Shown here: positions 4,058-27,038 of the stretch, one piece after another | Numbering within the stretch: the stretch's first letter is position 1 | Layout: each line of letters starts with the position of its first letter | Origin: Bacteroides sp. Marseille-P3684 | Lineage (GTDB): Bacteria > Bacteroidota > Bacteroidia > Bacteroidales > Bacteroidaceae | Assembly (NCBI RefSeq): GCF_900291465.1 | Contig: NZ_LT985808.1 | Coordinates: 2,351,762-2,415,761, forward strand | Reading direction: 5' to 3' | Length of the DNA stretch: 64,000 bases | Notes under the pieces: generated by a model | What the model was told of the DNA's origin: nothing | The model's database searches: none | What the model saw: only the letters and a program-made list of their open reading frames with translations | Translations under genes and position numbers: made by a program

Positions 4058-5140
4058 TCAGAATTTAATCTCTTCCAATATCTGAAGGATACGTTCTGCC
4101 GTACGTCCATCCCAGCGTTCCGGAAGGGAGCCTGTTTTCCACTCTCCTCTTCTCAGAACCCGGAGGGCTTCTGCCAGTTCTTTCATATCCAGACCTACGG
4201 CAACGTTGGTCCCCTGATTTACTGTTTCAGGATGTTCCACATAATCATGTAAGGTAATACAAGGTATTCCGAGAAACGTTGCTTCTTCCGCCACATTGCC
4301 TGAATCTGTGATAATTCCGGCTGCATGTGCTTCCAAATAGCCAAATTGCAAATAAGGCTGGGGAGGCAACAAATGGAGGCGAGACAAATCAAGATGCAAA
4401 GAACGTATCTTATCTGCTACATACGTATGAAGTGGAGCCATGATTGGCAAATCCGTCTCCCGCAAAAGAGTTTCCAACAAATTCTCCAATGTTTCCGGCT
4501 CATCGACCACTGCGCGTCGGTTCAGAGTGAACAACAGGTAGGCTCCGTCAGTGATATCAGCCGGCATATCGGGACGCACGAATCTCTGTCGATTGTAACG
4601 CAATGTATCAATCAGGAGATTACCTACGAAATAGACATGGGCCTGTTCTGTTCCCGTTTGATTCAGGTTGCGATTGGAATTCATCCCCGCAGTAAAGAAA
4701 TAGTCAGATAATCCATCTGTAATCATCCGGTTAACCTCCTTGGGCATATTCATATCAAAGGAACGGATTCCTGCAACCAAATGCGCCACTTTGATGCCTT
4801 TCTTTTTTGCTACGATGGAACATGCCATGGTTGGGGTCATATCATCGACAACCATCACCAAGTCTGTAGGGTGAGCATCCAGGTCATGTGCAAAAGAAAC
4901 CAAGATTCCCGCCAAACGTTCAAAGAAGTCCGTTGCTTCCACATTGAGATATACATCGGGAGCATCCATTCCCAAATCCTCAAACAATGTAGAGTCCAAA
5001 CTTGCATCCTGTCGTGAACCGGTGTAGACCAAACGATATTGAATATCTTTGCCCTGAGCCTGTTCAGCTTTGATTGCACGTGCTAAAGGGGCTATTTTCA
5101 TGAAATTGGGACGTGCGCCGGCAATAATCGTAATCTTCAT
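4058..5140 (-). CDS. UDP-N-acetylglucosamine 2-epimerase-like protein (WecB family, altered active site)
   Basis: A 360-residue protein of the non-hydrolysing UDP-GlcNAc 2-epimerase family, which interconverts UDP-GlcNAc and UDP-ManNAc for surface polysaccharide synthesis. The N-terminal GARPNFMK keeps the Arg10 and Lys15 known from E. coli WecB; VVDDMT aligns with the HGDTxT segment (Asp99/100); ITDSGNVAEEATFLGIP with the UDP-binding TDSGGxQEE loop; and HPETVNQGTNVAVG with the C-terminal signature. The usual HVEAG catalytic loop reads HLVAG, with Val122 (codon GTT) where WecB has an essential Glu. It may therefore have a different activity or substrate, or be inactive. No polysaccharide genes adjoin it. 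Confidence 0.75.
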   Translation of the reverse strand: MKITIIAGARPNFMKIAPLARAIKAEQAQGKDIQYRLVYTGSRQDASLDSTLFEDLGMDAPDVYLNVEATDFFERLAGILVSFAHDLDAHPTDLVMVVDDMTPTMACSIVAKKKGIKVAHLVAGIRSFDMNMPKEVNRMITDGLSDYFFTAGMNSNRNLNQTGTEQAHVYFVGNLLIDTLRYNRQRFVRPDMPADITDGAYLLFTLNRRAVVDEPETLENLLETLLRETDLPIMAPLHTYVADKIRSLHLDLSRLHLLPPQPYLQFGYLEAHAAGIITDSGNVAEEATFLGIPCITLHDYVEHPETVNQGTNVAVGLDMKELAEALRVLRRGEWKTGSLPERWDGRTAERILQILEEIKF

Positions 5141-16780: not shown

Positions 16781-18139
16781 TCATGCCGCTTTAACAGCTC
16801 TGTTTCCGATCTTGTCCATCATCAGTACGGCATTTGCCGTATGTATTCCAAAGAAAATCCATAGGATTTCCGTCTTTCTGTTCCGTGCCTTTATCCTTGA
16901 GAGTGAGTAATGCTGCTTCTGTGTGCCGAAGCTGCCTTCAAGCCGGGTAGCTCTTTCTTTTGAGAGTTCACTTCTGAGAACCTTTCTCAAGGATTCATCC
17001 CTGGCCGCCCTTCCCTTGCGTACAAAGGAGGTGGATATTCCATATTTTGTACAGAACTTTCTGTTGGCATTATTGGCGTATATGGAATCGGCAGCCACGC
17101 ATCTTACTCTCACATTCATGAGCTTCTGCTGCATGCGGATGCAGTCCTTCAGGCGTATGCCTTCGTTGAAAGCCTTGAAGGAGAGGTGTTCGATGAACGA
17201 TATGCCGTCTATCTGTATGTTGTTGACCTTCGCACCGAACTCGACAGACTTTGTTTCCTTACCTCTTACAATGGGACGTACATAATGACGGTCAATGCTG
17301 ACAATATGGTCACTGACCTTCCTGCCTTCAAACAAATTCTTTTCCTGTACAAGAACCTTTCTGATGATGGAAAGACGCTTCCGGTAATCCCGGGTATATC
17401 GGAGTGAGGTCCCATGTTCTCTATGGATTTCATCCCTCTGTATGAGAAGCTTTTCAAGGAGTCTGATCATACGACGCCTGAGCATCCTTGTCCTTGAAGC
17501 CTTCCTCTTTCTTTTCTTGCAGTAGGACAGATAGGACTTCGCCACATCCGCATACTTGTTGCGCGGACGCCTTATACCCAGATCCCTGCAATGAAGGCAG
17601 ATATGCCTGTAGAGCCATTCCAGGCTTTCCCAAAGGAGTTTCATATCCGTAGGAAAACGCATATGGCTCTCATAGCATGTGGCATCGGTCATACACACAT
17701 GAAGGTTCTCAAGATAAGGTTTCCAGTGTGAGGACAGCACTTCCTGGAGGGAATCAATGTCAAGACGGGATGCTATTTCATTGCGGATGGCACTGACTAT
17801 CTTGTAGTTGGTTATGGGGAAAGACGGATTTATCATGATTCCGCAGAACATCTGGTAGTGTATGTTTCCGTTAAGATGTTCCACCAGCTGTCTGTCAGAG
17901 AAGCCGGTGTACGCCTTCAGGACCATGAGGGCAATCTTAGCCGAAGGACTGAAGATGTTCCTGCGTCCCAGTCGCTGTTCCGACAGGCCCATAGTCTTTG
18001 CCATACGGTCAAACGGGAACACGGAATGAAGCCTGCCAAGCTCACTCTCATGAAAACTCTTGCGATATTTTTCCAGAATATCAAATTCTGTAAAGCCCAA
18101 AGTAGGGTGAATTTCTGAAATATTTTGTATCTTAGCCAT
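16781..18139 (-). CDS. IS5/IS1182-like DDE transposase
   Basis: A 452-residue transposase with an N-terminal DUF772-type region (ALMVLKAYTGFSDRQLVEHL, NGNIHYQMFCGI) and a catalytic core: VCMTDATCYESHMRFPTDMK with the first Asp, VRCVAADSIYANNANRKFCT with the second, and RLEGSFGTQKQHYSLSRIKA with the catalytic Glu region. An Arg/Lys-rich stretch (KKRKRKASRTRMLRRRMIRL) is in the middle. The layout matches IS5-group elements of the IS1182 kind, but the subgroup is not certain. The frame is complete. Element ends were not determined: no matching terminal repeats were found by eye in the flanking 100 bases. It lies 130 bases from the IS1634-like element on the same strand. Confidence 0.85.
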   Translation of the reverse strand: MAKIQNISEIHPTLGFTEFDILEKYRKSFHESELGRLHSVFPFDRMAKTMGLSEQRLGRRNIFSPSAKIALMVLKAYTGFSDRQLVEHLNGNIHYQMFCGIMINPSFPITNYKIVSAIRNEIASRLDIDSLQEVLSSHWKPYLENLHVCMTDATCYESHMRFPTDMKLLWESLEWLYRHICLHCRDLGIRRPRNKYADVAKSYLSYCKKRKRKASRTRMLRRRMIRLLEKLLIQRDEIHREHGTSLRYTRDYRKRLSIIRKVLVQEKNLFEGRKVSDHIVSIDRHYVRPIVRGKETKSVEFGAKVNNIQIDGISFIEHLSFKAFNEGIRLKDCIRMQQKLMNVRVRCVAADSIYANNANRKFCTKYGISTSFVRKGRAARDESLRKVLRSELSKERATRLEGSFGTQKQHYSLSRIKARNRKTEILWIFFGIHTANAVLMMDKIGNRAVKAA

Positions 18140-21365: not shown

Positions 21366-24092
21366 ATGACCGAAAAACGAGTGTATATCTTCGGCAATGG
21401 AAAAGCTGAAGGTAGAGCAGACATGAGAAATCTACTAGGAGGTAAAGGTGCTAACCTTGCAGAAATGAACCTCATCGGTGTTCCTGTGCCTCCCGGGTTT
21501 ACAATTACGACTGACGTATGCAACGAATATTATGCCATAGGTAAGGAAAGAGTGGTAGAGTTGCTCAAAGATGATGTGACAAAAGCCGTCCAACATATTG
21601 AAAATCTGATGAACTCTAAGTTTGGTGATGTAGAGAACCCGTTGTTGGTATCTGTACGTTCCGGTGCACGTGCATCCATGCCGGGCATGATGGATACAAT
21701 CCTCAACTTAGGTCTGAACGATGAAGTTGTAGAAGGATTGGCTCGTAAAACCGGTAACACACGTTTTGCATGGGATTCCTATCGTCGTTTCGTACAGATG
21801 TACGGTGACGTGGTATTGGGTATGAAGCCTACCAATAAAGACGATATTGACCCCTTCGAGGCTATCATCGAAGAGGTGAAAGAAGCCAAAGGTGTGAAGT
21901 TGGATAATGAGTTGGATGTAGAAGACCTGAAGGAGTTGGTAAAACGATTCAAGGCTGCCGTAAAAGCACAAACCGGACAAGACTTCCCGACCGATTCACA
22001 CGAACAGTTGTGGGGCGCAATTTGCGCAGTTTTTGATTCCTGGATGAACGAACGTGCTATTCTGTATAGAAAGATGGAAGGTATTCCCGCTGAATGGGGT
22101 ACTGCTGTCAACGTACAGGCTATGGTGTTCGGAAATATGGGTGACACTTCCGCTACTGGTGTTTGCTTCTCCCGTGATGCAGCTACCGGTGAAGACTTGT
22201 TCAACGGTGAATACCTGATCAATGCTCAGGGCGAAGATGTCGTTGCTGGTATCCGTACTCCGCAACAGATCACCTTGGAGGGTTCTCGTCGCTGGGCCGC
22301 TTTGGCTGGTATTGACGAGGAAACTCGTGCTGCCAAATATCCTTCGATGGAAGAGGCCATGCCTGAAATTTACAAGGAACTTGATGCCATCCAGACAAAA
22401 TTGGAGAACCACTACCGCGATATGCAGGATATGGAATTCACGGTACAAGAAGGCAAACTTTGGTTCCTCCAAACCCGTAACGGTAAACGTACTGGTGCTG
22501 CCATGGTCAAGATTGCCATGGATTTGTTGCGTCAAGGCATGATCGATGAAAAGACAGCTATCATGCGCGTCGAACCGAACAAGCTTGACGAACTTCTCCA
22601 CCCCATCTTTGCGAAGGAAGCTTTGGCCAAGGCTAAAGTTATCGCCAAGGGTCTGCCCGCTTCTCCGGGTGCTGCCTGTGGACGTATCGTCTTCTTTGCT
22701 GATGATGCAGCAAAATGGGCTAAAGATGGTCACAAAGTCATCATGGTTCGTATCGAGACTTCACCTGAAGACCTCGCCGGTATGCAGGTGGCTGAAGGCA
22801 TCCTGACTGCTCGTGGCGGTATGACCTCACACGCTGCCGTGGTTGCACGTGGTATGGGTAAATGCTGCGTTTCTGGTGCAGGCATGCTGAACATTAACTA
22901 TAAGGAAAGAACCATTGAGGTTGACGGATTAACATTGAAAGAAGGTGATTTCATTTCACTCAATGGAACTACCGGACAAGTTTATGAAGGTCAGGTGACG
23001 ACAAAGGCTGCTGAAGTATCCGGAGACTTTGCCGACTTGATGGACCTCTGCAATAAATACAGCCGTCTGCAGGTTCGTACCAATGCCGATACTCCCCACG
23101 ACGCACAAGTTGCACGTAACTTTGGTGCTGTAGGTATCGGCCTTTGCCGTACAGAACACATGTTCTTCGAAGGTGAAAAGATTAAGGCTATGCGTGAGAT
23201 GATTCTCGCTGAAACCTCTCAAGAACGTCAAAAAGCTCTTCAAAAGATCCTTCCCTATCAGAAGGAAGACTTCAAGGGTATTTTCCGCGCAATGGATGGT
23301 TATCCTGTAACAGTCCGTCTGCTCGATCCTCCTTTGCACGAGTTCGTTCCTCACGATGACAAGGGCCAGCAGGAAATGGCAGATGCCATGCACGTAAGCT
23401 TGGACTACATCAGAAAACGTGTGGAATCTTTGAAGGAGCAAAACCCGATGTTGGGTCACCGCGGTTGCCGTTTGGGTAATACATACCCTGAAATCACTCA
23501 AATGCAGACTCGCGCCATTTTGAGCGCAGCTCTTGAGTTGAAGGCTGAAGGCATCAACTGCCGTCCGGAAATCATGGTACCGCTGACCGGTATCCGCTAC
23601 GAGTTCGAAGCACAGGAAAAGATTATCCGTGAAGAGGCTGACAAGTTGTTCAGCGAAATGAATACTTCCATCGAATATAAGGTGGGAACCATGATTGAGA
23701 TTCCGCGTGCAGCCCTTACTGCTGATCGTATTGCATTGCATGCTGAATTCTTCTCCTTCGGTACAAACGACTTGACCCAGATGACCTTCGGATATTCGCG
23801 TGATGATATCGCTTCCTTCTTGCCCATCTATTTGGAGAAGAAGATCTTGAAGTTCGACCCCTTCCAGGTACTTGACCAGAATGGTGTAGGTCAGCTTATC
23901 AAGATGGCTACCGAGAAAGGACGTTCTGTACGCCCCGACCTGAAATGTGGTATCTGCGGTGAGCACGGAGGTGAACCTTCTTCTGTCAAGTTCTGTCACC
24001 GTGTCGGTTTGAACTACGTAAGCTGCTCTCCGTTCCGCGTGCCTATTGCACGTCTGGCTGCGGCTCAAGCAGCGGTAGAAGATACTCTCTAA
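21366..24092 (+). CDS. ppdK: Pyruvate, phosphate dikinase
   Basis: Interconverts pyruvate, ATP and phosphate with phosphoenolpyruvate, AMP and diphosphate, a reversible glycolytic step in anaerobes. The 908-residue protein has the full three-domain length. The N-terminal ATP-grasp begins FGNGKAEGRADMRNLLGGKG; the phosphohistidine domain carries GGMTSHAAVVARGMGK, with His489 as the swivelling catalytic residue; the C-terminal PEP/pyruvate TIM barrel has LGHRGCRLGNTYPE, FFSFGTNDLTQMTFGYSRDD and the catalytic Cys in LKCGICGEHGGEP. Codon use is strongly biased, as in highly expressed genes. It is single, with its own promoter and terminator. Confidence 0.98.
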   Translation: MTEKRVYIFGNGKAEGRADMRNLLGGKGANLAEMNLIGVPVPPGFTITTDVCNEYYAIGKERVVELLKDDVTKAVQHIENLMNSKFGDVENPLLVSVRSGARASMPGMMDTILNLGLNDEVVEGLARKTGNTRFAWDSYRRFVQMYGDVVLGMKPTNKDDIDPFEAIIEEVKEAKGVKLDNELDVEDLKELVKRFKAAVKAQTGQDFPTDSHEQLWGAICAVFDSWMNERAILYRKMEGIPAEWGTAVNVQAMVFGNMGDTSATGVCFSRDAATGEDLFNGEYLINAQGEDVVAGIRTPQQITLEGSRRWAALAGIDEETRAAKYPSMEEAMPEIYKELDAIQTKLENHYRDMQDMEFTVQEGKLWFLQTRNGKRTGAAMVKIAMDLLRQGMIDEKTAIMRVEPNKLDELLHPIFAKEALAKAKVIAKGLPASPGAACGRIVFFADDAAKWAKDGHKVIMVRIETSPEDLAGMQVAEGILTARGGMTSHAAVVARGMGKCCVSGAGMLNINYKERTIEVDGLTLKEGDFISLNGTTGQVYEGQVTTKAAEVSGDFADLMDLCNKYSRLQVRTNADTPHDAQVARNFGAVGIGLCRTEHMFFEGEKIKAMREMILAETSQERQKALQKILPYQKEDFKGIFRAMDGYPVTVRLLDPPLHEFVPHDDKGQQEMADAMHVSLDYIRKRVESLKEQNPMLGHRGCRLGNTYPEITQMQTRAILSAALELKAEGINCRPEIMVPLTGIRYEFEAQEKIIREEADKLFSEMNTSIEYKVGTMIEIPRAALTADRIALHAEFFSFGTNDLTQMTFGYSRDDIASFLPIYLEKKILKFDPFQVLDQNGVGQLIKMATEKGRSVRPDLKCGICGEHGGEPSSVKFCHRVGLNYVSCSPFRVPIARLAAAQAAVEDTL

Positions 24093-24110
24093 GAGTCTAT
24101 TAGACATTAG

Positions 24111-24162
24111 CTTAGGCTGTAAATCTCTCATTATAAAGAGGCTTACAGCCTAAGTCGTTTTT
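24111..24162 (+). terminator. Intrinsic terminator of ppdK
   Basis: Perfect 12-bp arms, 24111-24122 (cttaggctgtaa) and 24143-24154 (ttacagcctaag), followed by tcgttttt. It lies 18 bases after the ppdK stop and just before the convergent HIRAN gene. Confidence 0.9.
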
Positions 24163-24177
24163 AGGCGGCTGTACATT

Positions 24178-25329
24178 CTACATAATAATCATGTGCGTAA
24201 AAAACAACTCTTTCAATTTGCCAATACAATTTTCAGGCAGTTTTCCTTCTGGTTGGTAAGAACCGATTTCACAACTGTTCAAAAAGTCCAACTCCTGCAG
24301 ATTAACTATAACCGGGCCTTTTACCAACGTCAATACATACGGTGCGCAGTCATCTACCATGTCCATTTCCTCTTCCGGGTCCTCCAAAAAAGGTATGGCA
24401 TCCTCGCCTATGGCAATCGTGTGCATCAGATAGAGTTCAGCATCCGCCTCGCGTTTGTGGATGAATACGACCTTGTCACCTTTTCGGGGCAAATCTCTTT
24501 CCCAAGGAGGAAATCCACCCCAGCGGAAGCGTGCGACACCATCTTGATAAAGAAATCGCATAAGGTCTTTGGAGAAATTGCTGTTCACCTTTTGTATAAA
24601 CCAGCTTTCCATACTGTCCTCCTTACTCTTAATATAGATGGTCATGCGCAAGCGTTCATCGTATGCACCACTATTCTTGACAGTGGTAAGTTCTGCAGTG
24701 AAAGCATCACCCCATCCCATATCCATCATGTTGGCAATCATTTCATTTTCCTTGCGTGGTACATAGCCGATGATGCAATCAAAGTCTTCCACATCACCGC
24801 CTATATCCTCAGCCAATGCCACGGCCACAGCATTACAGTCGTGCTTATTGGCACGTTCGCGGAGTAAGACAAGTTTCGCACCTTCGTACAACTCGTCCCA
24901 AAAGTCTTCGGGATGGTGGAAGCTCCAGCCGGCAACGGCACATTCCTTGAAAAATGCCCTTCTCTTTTTGGGTTCAGGAAAATTGAACATTCCTGCAGGA
25001 GGCGGTACAGGCATACCTTCTGTAAATTCTATTTTGTCATCATATTCGGATGGAGCGACATCGCCTAGGTCAATGAGGTTGTTGTCCGTATCACCGCCTG
25101 GATTGAGGTTTCTCACCATTTCCTCCATCTGCCGGTCAAGTTCAATATTCTCAATGCCTTTCTCCTTTAATTGCTTTTGCAGGTTTTGCAGCTCAGCGTC
25201 ACATTGGGGGCATGTGCCTGCACAATTTCCTTCGTGATGACACTCTACAGGTTGGTATGTCAGTCCATACTGTTCGGTTATCCGCCTGCGGATTTCTCTG
25301 AGCAAGTTGCATTTATCTTTTCCGTTCAT
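24178..25329 (-). CDS. HIRAN-domain protein with N-terminal Cys/His cluster
   Basis: A 383-residue protein. The N-terminal 55 residues contain a Cys/His-rich motif (KCNLLREIRRRITEQYGL, then VECHHEGNCAGTCPQCDAEL) that could bind metal, followed by a short predicted helix. Residues of about 125-215 match a HIRAN domain: FFKECAVAGWSFHHPEDF, LYEGAKLVLLRERANKHDCN, AVAVALAED and CIIGYVPRKENEMI. HIRAN domains, known from HLTF/Rad5, bind 3' DNA ends or damaged DNA; in bacteria they occur alone or fused. The C-terminal 170 residues are unrecognised. The start overlaps the stop of the preceding small ORF by four bases (ATGA), indicating translational coupling in a three-gene unit with the macro-like/NADAR protein. 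Confidence 0.8.
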   Translation of the reverse strand: MNGKDKCNLLREIRRRITEQYGLTYQPVECHHEGNCAGTCPQCDAELQNLQKQLKEKGIENIELDRQMEEMVRNLNPGGDTDNNLIDLGDVAPSEYDDKIEFTEGMPVPPPAGMFNFPEPKKRRAFFKECAVAGWSFHHPEDFWDELYEGAKLVLLRERANKHDCNAVAVALAEDIGGDVEDFDCIIGYVPRKENEMIANMMDMGWGDAFTAELTTVKNSGAYDERLRMTIYIKSKEDSMESWFIQKVNSNFSKDLMRFLYQDGVARFRWGGFPPWERDLPRKGDKVVFIHKREADAELYLMHTIAIGEDAIPFLEDPEEEMDMVDDCAPYVLTLVKGPVIVNLQELDFLNSCEIGSYQPEGKLPENCIGKLKELFFTHMIIM

Positions 25330-25487
25330 GTTACAGTCCTTTTGTTTGAGGGTAGTTCAGACCGAAGCGGACGGCCCATGAAACAGCCCAATGTGATGAT
25401 TCCATGTCTGTCCGTTCCCATCCGTAAGCGGTCTATGGTGAAGATGGGAGTCATATAATACGTTTGATGTTTATTCAATGATTCCAT
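25326..25487 (-). CDS. 53-residue ORF resembling a radical-SAM N-terminus without its cysteines
   Basis: An ATG at 25487 opens 53 codons ending in a TGA that overlaps the HIRAN start. The product contains YYMTPIFTIDRLRMGTD and HGIITLGCFMGRPLRSELPS. This resembles the start of radical-SAM activating proteins (IDRLRMGTDG, then a TLV..GCPLRCxYCxN cluster motif), but the three cluster cysteines align with Arg, Ser and Pro. No SAM-radical chemistry is possible in this form. It may be a relic of a lost enzyme retained as a translational coupler, or a small functional peptide. It lies 12 bases after the macro-like/NADAR stop. The reading of homology is by eye. Confidence 0.55.
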   Translation of the reverse strand: MESLNKHQTYYMTPIFTIDRLRMGTDRHGIITLGCFMGRPLRSELPSNKRTVT

Positions 25488-25499
25488 ATGGATGTTTCT

Positions 25500-27038
25500 T
25501 CATTTTATTTTACTGAGTTTTTCCCTCACATCCATCAATGCGAACCCAAGCAGGTTTTCTCCTTTCCATAGACGGGGATTCCGGCAGTCCGGGTCATCTT
25601 CTTTCATGCCAATTCCCCAGACTGTATCGTAGGGACTGGCCTCCACCAATATCTTGTCTCTTGTGTTGAGCAGAAATACTTTCAGCTCTTCATTGTCCAT
25701 GAATTTATGCAGATTGCCGGTAATGACAACCTCCATACGGTACTTTTGCCATTTGAATTCGTCAAAATTCCGCACTTCTCTACCTAATGCTTTTATTTCT
25801 TTAGGGTCAGTAGAAGCCAAAATTCTATTTCTAGTATCTTCATCACCCATGATTCGCGCCTTCTCTGCCATCATGAACTGTTCCGCACAGTTGTAATGGA
25901 TGCCATTTACGGTAAACTTACAAGGAAACCATTGGCTGAGACAGGCTTTGGTTGTTTCACCCGGCTTGCCGTGATGTCCCCAAAAGAACAGGAAATCCGG
26001 ATTGGAAATCTCATAGAGACCTTCTTTCCTTAATCCTCCATTCACATTCGTATAGTCCAAAGCGCGGTACCATTCCCTGAAAATATCCGAATTCGCGAAA
26101 TCACCTCCCCAATAAAGCCAGCGGTTAAGCAACAAGGCTTTCATGGACATAGGCACACCATCATCAGGACATAAATCGGCAAGTCCGCATTGTTTGTAAT
26201 AATCCAAATCCTCTTCTATATGGGGATACTCTTGCGGAAATAGATTGAACTTCACCCAACATCGTTCATACGCAAATAACATGGCCTTCCTATGTGGATG
26301 AAAAGGACACAACCTTTCTCCTTTATAATAATGGCACTGTTCCAGCAGCATCAGCTTCTGCGATGGGAACTCTGCCGACATATACATACTGAACACCCAT
26401 TCTTTATTGACCGGTTGGTGCATGAGATCATCAGTCAGCACCACTCCTCTTTCAAAGTCTTTGTGCAAGCCGTACTTTTCAAAATGCTCGTGCCAGTCAT
26501 AATAGTCATAGCTATCCCACAAAAGTTCAAAATAGTGCTGATGTTCCCAAATACCGTGAGAAAGCGTACCTGCGGAATAGGGATTCCTTGCTTGCATCCG
26601 TTTTGCCAGCACATCTATGGCCGCCTTGCTTAGCGGACGGATTTGCATGATGACCTCCTCAAACGATTCCGGCAACACAATGTTCTCTTCCACTATCGCT
26701 TCTTTGAATAAGGGAGCGATGTCCTCTGTCTTGAATCCGGCAATTCCACAACCGATGGGAGTCACCAGAAAGGTCAGCTCCTTATGTTCCTTGGCAAAAG
26801 CAATGAACTCCTCTACATAGGGACGGATGGTTTCCACGCCACCTTGCATGGTCGGTATGGCGTAGGATTGCCCTTGTAACCCAACGCCCTTGCCCCAGAT
26901 GGCACCGAACTTTTCGTATGCCATGCGGGCAGCTCCTCCGCCGTGCATTCCCTGCAGGTTGCTGCCAAACACGAATATTTCGCCTGGTTGAAGGCTTGTG
27001 ATTCTTTCGGGTGTGTAGATAGGTCTAATGTATTCCAT
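25500..27038 (-). CDS. Macro-like and NADAR domain fusion protein
   Basis: A 512-residue protein joining two ADP-ribose-related folds. Residues about 10-130: EIFVFGSNLQGMHGGGAARM, GLQGQSYAIPTM and TFLVTPIGCGIAGFKTEDIA, the layout of a macro-like (A1S_2505-type) domain with the Gly-rich ligand loop. The middle part (about 150-345), rich in Trp, Tyr and His, is unrecognised. Residues 348-512 form a NADAR/YbiA domain with YNCAEQFMMAEKARIM, FKWQKYRMEVVITGNLHKF, VEASPYDTVWGIGM and ENLLGFALMDVREKL. Macro domains bind or hydrolyse ADP-ribose; some NADAR proteins remove ADP-ribose from guanine. A joint role in ADP-ribose metabolism or anti-toxin defence is inferred. The ATG at 27038 is preferred because the fold begins there and the longer frame runs towards the uxaB terminator. 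Confidence 0.8.
   Translation of the reverse strand: MEYIRPIYTPERITSLQPGEIFVFGSNLQGMHGGGAARMAYEKFGAIWGKGVGLQGQSYAIPTMQGGVETIRPYVEEFIAFAKEHKELTFLVTPIGCGIAGFKTEDIAPLFKEAIVEENIVLPESFEEVIMQIRPLSKAAIDVLAKRMQARNPYSAGTLSHGIWEHQHYFELLWDSYDYYDWHEHFEKYGLHKDFERGVVLTDDLMHQPVNKEWVFSMYMSAEFPSQKLMLLEQCHYYKGERLCPFHPHRKAMLFAYERCWVKFNLFPQEYPHIEEDLDYYKQCGLADLCPDDGVPMSMKALLLNRWLYWGGDFANSDIFREWYRALDYTNVNGGLRKEGLYEISNPDFLFFWGHHGKPGETTKACLSQWFPCKFTVNGIHYNCAEQFMMAEKARIMGDEDTRNRILASTDPKEIKALGREVRNFDEFKWQKYRMEVVITGNLHKFMDNEELKVFLLNTRDKILVEASPYDTVWGIGMKEDDPDCRNPRLWKGENLLGFALMDVREKLSKIK

Follow-up and report, generated by a model that had tools for sequence, protein, structure and literature searches.

The locus at positions 24178–27038 of the 64,000-nucleotide stretch of Bacteroides sp. 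Marseille-P3684 DNA analyzed here (hereafter "the window") appears, from its sequence, to be a copy, partly decayed, of an operon of the Bacteroidales in which a macro-middle-[NADAR or ADP-ribosylglycohydrolase] fusion gene is followed by a radical-SAM gene and a gene for a Cys-module-HIRAN protein. We consider, with moderate confidence, that the best explanation of this locus is an ADP-ribosylation-reversal module with conflict-system traits whose operon has partly decayed. The bacterium itself probably derives from the gut.

The Macro-NADAR Fusion Protein

The first gene (25500–27038, minus strand) encodes a protein of 512 amino acids (P0001), which we studied by profile and fold searches and by dN/dS. 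It joins an A1S_2505-like macro domain (residues ~20–131), a middle region (residues ~131–345, including a phrog_19606-like unit at residues 230–324) and a NADAR domain (residues ~346–512). The preliminary description of this DNA had placed macro and NADAR domains in one 512-residue protein, and profile and predicted fold both bear this out. Specifically, the NADAR part matches its family profile and, in the fold search, YbiA, and the macro fold is recovered at the fold level from the predicted model, the confidence of which is low in the middle region. The best family for the macro domain is a phage non-structural family, together with phrog_2072; phrog_1017 is matched by NADAR, and phrog_19606 by a portion of the middle. 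NADAR also scores 172.9 bits (cut-off 73.7) against TIGR02464, a profile named for riboflavin biosynthesis intermediates N-glycosidase. The gene is under purifying selection (dN/dS = 0.08–0.10 against two full-length relatives).

The catalytic Glu and Lys of the window NADAR appear to be retained. Residues E386, K393, and E466 are kept in an alignment to 8bau (rather than to E. coli C7), and E386 and K393 lie seven residues apart, as do E88 and K95 of E. coli C7, to which the portion of PMC11543638 available to us assigns NADAR catalytic roles. In the last NADAR strand of the model stands a Glu (VEASP, E466); in the available portion of PMC11125620, Glu at that strand is YbiA-type and Asp is that of DarT1-linked NADARs, and we infer that E466 maps onto the YbiA-type position. 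Elsewhere in the same genome (G000:C1:632819-633280) lies a second macro-like stretch that is 58% identical, the matched part of which contains a TGA.

A Radical-SAM Remnant and a Cys-Module-HIRAN Protein

Twelve bases separate the fusion gene from a 53-codon open reading frame (ORF; 25326–25487, minus strand), which in turn meets the HIRAN gene in an ATGA overlap, both as originally reported. The ORF had, however, been taken for a small gene, and DNA alignment and dN/dS instead identify it as the remnant of a pyruvate formate-lyase (PFL)-activase-like radical-SAM gene. Through this ORF the window DNA aligns to six homologous loci (L061, L070–L074), where the aligned ORF is 196–241 codons long, stop included (196 being the frameshifted L072), and its product is of the radical-SAM family (P0004 of L071: Pfam 7.8e-11). 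The best solved relatives of this family are the PFL activating enzymes 3c8f and 8fo0 (E about 1e-22), and intact relatives of the lost enzyme, of the PFL-activase type, have ~234 residues. The window remnant retains about the first 42 codons (it aligns over the initial ~45 codons of the radical-SAM gene); relative to L070, L071, and L073, 548 nt net are missing. Three motif cysteines are invariant across 18 relatives; in the remnant the first of them has become Arg, the CX3CX2C motif is destroyed and the SAM-binding core is deleted, so that it no longer qualifies as a radical-SAM enzyme. Its dN/dS is 0.43–1.25 (six comparisons over 42 codons, a length at which single values are noisy) vs. 0.00–0.42 for the same codons between four relatives (six pairs), and the remnant is apparently not under purifying selection. 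A P0004 search of the genome itself returned only the remnant and one 31% identical match elsewhere. Judged from sequence, then, the radical-SAM part of the module is lost in the window copy. The gene is also broken in L072 (4 extra bases) and in L076 (an in-frame stop that could be an assembly error, L076 being a metagenome assembly). Good spacing and the ATGA overlap would suit a real small gene, such as a regulator or antitoxin, but the alignment to the radical-SAM gene, the lack of a family match in four profile libraries and the relaxed constraint contradict this reading, and we give it next to no credence.

The third gene (24178–25329, minus strand), examined by profile, fold, and dN/dS, encodes a 383-residue protein (P0003) comprising a Cys-module (residues 1–57; C7, C30, C36, C40, and C43), a HIRAN domain (residues 131–235) and an uncharacterised C-terminal region. 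HIRAN is recognized by its family profile (36.9 bits vs. 24.7) and by fold (Foldseek: 3k2y, 2e-5; HLTF, 1.5e-4) on a low-confidence model (mean pLDDT 57.6, poor outside HIRAN). The five cysteines of the ~57-residue N-terminal module are invariant in 16 aligned rows, and the HIRAN protein with a Cys cluster of the preliminary description is thus upheld by profile, fold, and conservation. Structure prediction, suggested there as a check, found the macro and NADAR folds in the one model and the HIRAN fold on the other, low-confidence one. The module's spacing contains CX3CX2C (C36, C40, and C43), which is also the spacing of the radical-SAM cluster motif, and no solved relative of the module emerged by sequence (best E 0.08). 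This gene, too, is under purifying selection (dN/dS = 0.13–0.18 in five comparisons).

Homologous Operons and the Hydrolase Slot

A scan with P0003 of a genome collection holding one genome per species matched nine loci, eight of them with HIRAN. The upstream gene is of the fusion type in six of these eight: the full macro-middle-NADAR gene stands in L071 and L072, in L070 and L073 it is cut by a contig end, and L074 has a NADAR with a decayed front; L061 resembles L074 in that its macro half is also decayed. In L075 (Prevotella sp. 885) the slot holds a frameshifted macro domain fused to an ADP-ribosylglycohydrolase instead of macro-NADAR, and no fusion-type gene was seen upstream in L076 or L077. 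An open macro-middle-ADP-ribosylglycohydrolase gene occurs in G091 (L126), with an NrtR-type Nudix regulator in the same region. By eye, an NrtR-like ORF also lies beside a macro protein in G167 (L129). The radical-SAM gene is present in 7/8 HIRAN loci, two of these copies being broken (L072 and L076), and L077 has neither enzyme nor Cys-module.

Full-length Cys-HIRAN-type matches in a sample of 251 genomes of the window's family were few (G000, G057, G128, G136, G080, and G246), which makes the operon rare even within its own family. Some of its parts are dispensable, since the macro half is decayed in L074 and L061 and frameshifted in L075, and the radical-SAM enzyme is apparently not always needed, being lost or broken in the window, L072, and L076. 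Between L071 and L072, dS is 0.02 for Cys-HIRAN and 0.32 for the radical-SAM gene, a mosaic from which it follows that part of the operon was exchanged separately. The idea of a complete operon stands as regards gene order in relatives but not as regards the window copy, where the middle gene is lost and the HIRAN protein's Cys cluster is tied to that lost enzyme.

Pairing of the Cys-Module with the Radical-SAM Enzyme

The 251 family genomes were searched with P0003 and for the radical-SAM type. P0003 matched in 56 (the match taking in the Cys-module region in 32 and being confined to HIRAN in 24), and the radical-SAM type was present in 29/32 genomes with a module-region match vs. 0/219 others (Fisher p 6e-35, for genomes of one family and hence not independent events, kinship uncorrected). 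A genome was counted as having the enzyme when its radical-SAM match reached E 2.5e-48 or lower; G065 was dropped (28% identity, E 5e-22). Enzyme and module lie within 1.5 kb of each other in 28 of the 29 genomes, on the same strand in 27, and on different contigs in G178; this proximity count leaves aside G080 (a weak match, residues 1–72), which is included among the 32. A module-region match without the enzyme occurs in three genomes: that of the window, and G246 and G080, both of which have lost the GTCP motif.

Beyond the family, the module was found in 2/395 genomes of a phylum sample, both of the window's family; that sample also gave nine radical-SAM matches outside the family (6.7e-37 to 6.2e-31, vs. 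4.3e-98 in G032), in genomes none of which carries the module. An order sample gave the module in 4/188 genomes, two of them from other families: in G665 one of the modules adjoins a radical-SAM enzyme, and in G773 module and enzyme form one polypeptide. Within the family, the module of G229 likewise fronts the radical-SAM polypeptide itself. The module further stands at the front of TonB_C- and carboxypeptidase-regulatory-type proteins (eight of nine scanned module ORFs that lack HIRAN and enzyme carry such domains, some below the Pfam cut-off) and, at L126 3677-5083, a serpin (Pfam 8e-77) next to a radical-SAM gene. In each of G192, G056, and G092, three or four module ORFs at the least form an array beside one enzyme. 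On the Segatella copri plasmid NZ_CP137558.1, a "radical SAM protein" adjoins two "energy transducer TonB" genes, and the record holds two module matches. In a tree of 18 radical-SAM enzymes, the three from HIRAN operons form their own clade (100/99).

This pairing is a strong association and places the Cys-module of the HIRAN protein with the radical-SAM enzyme. The arrays, with several targets per enzyme, favor a substrate role for the module, and the enzyme-module fusions without cargo favor an accessory one. We put forward, tentatively and as a possibility that we would sooner doubt than adopt, that the module is a portable handle on unrelated cargo (TonB-type envelope proteins, a serpin, and the HIRAN protein), charged or modified by a dedicated, minimal PFL-activase-like radical-SAM enzyme. 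No description of this enzyme-module pair was found in the literature searched, which covered few subscription journals and was judged mainly by title and abstract.

Genomic Context and Phage Links

In Marseilla massiliensis, genes for BrxC, PglX, DUF3990, DUF6078, a SIR2-like protein, a further ORF, PglZ, BrxL, and the fusion protein follow one another on one strand, BrxL ending 6 nt before the fusion gene; the radical-SAM gene there is itself frameshifted, and Cys-HIRAN is followed by a RecD2-type helicase and a Y-family-type (IMS-family) polymerase (profile-scanned in the L071 copy). DUF3990 is placed in the Pfam ART clan in the available portion of PMC7955679. L071 has the same BrxL neighbor, 100% identical over 308 residues, which suggests transfer, as the collection holds one genome per species. 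BrxL lies directly upstream in two (L071 and L072) of five macro-NADAR-type loci with readable upstream DNA, the others being the window, L074, and L061. In G828 (L073), a BrxL of 99% identity lies close to the end of another contig, and in G830 a BrxL is on another contig number.

The window copy, by contrast, stands outside any BREX island and among metabolic genes, which speaks against the conflict reading: the nine scanned neighbors include pyruvate phosphate dikinase, mannitol-dehydrogenase-type, LacI, RNA-modification, and sugar-acid genes, and no BREX gene (PglZ or BrxL). The genome has one DUF3990 copy, about 0.49 Mb from the operon. A search near DarT-like toxins had also been suggested. 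DarT (PF14487) was not found in the genome itself or in 6/7 relatives; the seventh does carry it, but in a stretch with no sequence in common with operon locus L075, and linkage to DarT was accordingly rejected. In the window (21366–24178) the operon lies directly against the 3′ end of the gene for pyruvate phosphate dikinase, as in L074 but in the opposite orientation, a difference that suggests inversion or re-insertion. A transposase-type gene occupies 16781–18139, about 6 kb from the operon.

Parts of the fusion protein match 1135 phage records, of which none covers 80% of it in one place, and tblastn with the middle region gave no phage record at 1e-5. A P0007 (radical-SAM) scan of viral contigs confirmed no relative among 15 pattern matches. 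The one viral contig found with the operon is the IMG/VR contig of L061 (also that of L125 and L155), on which the operon is preceded by the final codons of a gene with the ending AAQAAVEDTL (4680–5140; cf. L074 1–730). The window's pyruvate phosphate dikinase gene ends in the same residues, and because of this gene end L061 looks like host DNA beside a prophage; a phage-borne origin of the whole operon was rejected. A prophage attachment site may thus exist at this gene's 3′ end, adjoining the operon. A viral-contig protein at L143 1533-2903 has a macro-like front and what we take to be an HC-x5-R-like phosphatase motif. On a Prevotella sp. E2-28 plasmid (L192 5962-6336), a DNA match to query bases 46–368, at the macro end of the fusion gene, falls on a gene with Sir2-family and vWA genes nearby. 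The domain pairing itself is known, tandem NADAR and Macro domains occurring in several viruses according to the available part of PMC9503650.

Comparison with Known Systems

The nearest published frame is the ARG-centered systems, which optionally include Macro and NADAR (PMC9503650 section 3.8, as available to us). The operon shares with them, as far as the available text goes, an ADP-ribose hydrolase core without an ART coupled next door, conflict-like variability and, near the macro-ADP-ribosylglycohydrolase fusion of G091 (L126), an NrtR-type Nudix regulator. They differ in that the same section pairs HIRAN with ARPP, not with macro-NADAR as here, and the words "radical SAM" and "BREX" do not occur in the available text. 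The defining ADP-ribosylglycohydrolase is present in L075 and G091, but its place is taken by NADAR in the window, where the nine scanned neighbors include no NrtR-like gene. DarTG1 (DarT1-NADAR) resembles the locus in a NADAR hydrolase with retained Glu and Lys (PMC11543638, in part), but the window has no adjacent DarT, and its NADAR is fused to macro and has Glu (E466), not the Asp given for DarT1-linked NADARs in the part of PMC11125620 cited above. In PADLOC, P0001 matches PDC-M42C (NADAR part, 1.5e-44) and the Marseilla DUF3990 matches PDC-M42A weakly (1.6e-9) and PDC-M13B best (8e-50); we read PDC-M42 from the two profile matches as an ART-NADAR pair, and no DUF3990 stands among the nine scanned window neighbors. 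PFL activating enzyme (3c8f and 8fo0) is of the same radical-SAM type and of similar size to the enzyme in relatives, the window copy being a remnant; in the operon loci, however, the neighbor is a Cys-module protein, and no glycyl-radical enzyme was recognized beside it in the loci read, unsystematically. In literature searches of similar reach (few subscription journals, mainly title and abstract), no description was found joining NADAR, a macro domain, and radical SAM, nor of an operon with NADAR and HIRAN, NADAR and BREX, or radical SAM and TonB; for HIRAN and radical SAM, none appeared among the matches listed, again mainly by title and abstract.

Proposed Function and Alternatives

The best-supported activity is to reverse ADP-ribosylation or to process ADP-ribose derivatives, because of the predicted domain content and the NADAR/ADP-ribosylglycohydrolase swap, and the tags would probably be removed from DNA, RNA, or small molecules. 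The fusion protein would remove ADP-ribose, NADAR acting on guanine bases or N-glycosidic adducts and macro either by binding or on a different linkage. The HIRAN protein may bring this activity to DNA ends or damaged DNA; HIRAN and the RecD2/polymerase neighbors are what link the operon to nucleic acid. The radical-SAM enzyme would mature or power the Cys-module, most simply by post-translational modification or as an iron-sulfur partner. The whole operon may counter ADP-ribosylation by toxins, phages, or neighboring defense enzymes, a link to conflict drawn from the BREX, SIR2, and ART-clan neighbors in M. massiliensis, and the window copy would retain the hydrolase and HIRAN functions without the radical-SAM step. 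Of the earlier proposal that the unit may sense and reverse ADP-ribosylation of nucleic acid in defense or repair, reversal thus gains from both folds, the NADAR Glu and Lys, and the swap in Prevotella sp. 885, and defense draws on the relatives' context only (BREX, DUF3990, and SIR2-like).

Macro-NADAR might instead destroy small ADP-ribose signal molecules, as a phage-style counter-signaling protein captured from phage and not acting on nucleic acid. Macro, NADAR, and part of the middle do match phage families, and phage Macro/NADAR proteins are argued, in the available part of PMC9503650, to target mostly small ADP-ribose derivatives; the lack of any phage record that covers most of the protein or matches its middle, a DNA-binding-type operon partner, and the RecD2 and polymerase genes downstream in relatives make this rather unlikely. 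A metabolite-damage enzyme of the riboflavin-intermediate N-glycosidase type, unrelated to conflict, would fit the TIGR02464 score and the metabolic neighborhood, but NADAR is here fused to macro, an ADP-ribosylglycohydrolase fills the slot in a relative, and no riboflavin gene is among the nine scanned window neighbors; we consider it quite improbable.

The radical-SAM/Cys-module pair could also be a membrane or cell-envelope maturation system in its own right, hitch-hiking alongside the HIRAN operon. The TonB_C and carboxypeptidase-regulatory-type cargo is what one would expect of such a system, and P0001 matches (macro or NADAR part) occur in 128/251 family genomes, at least 99 of which have no PFL-activase-like radical-SAM enzyme. 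Yet Cys-module and HIRAN share one polypeptide in L070–L076, GTCP has gone from two of the three enzyme-less module genomes, and the HIRAN-operon enzymes are a clade of their own, all of which renders hitch-hiking improbable.

For an ADP-ribosylation-reversal module, the operon offers a testable setting with hydrolase swapping and a DNA-binding-type partner. The pairing predicts that many Bacteroidales module proteins are modified or assisted by one enzyme type and, if the Cys-module is indeed a portable handle, radical chemistry would be part of an ADP-ribosylation-repair or defense complex.
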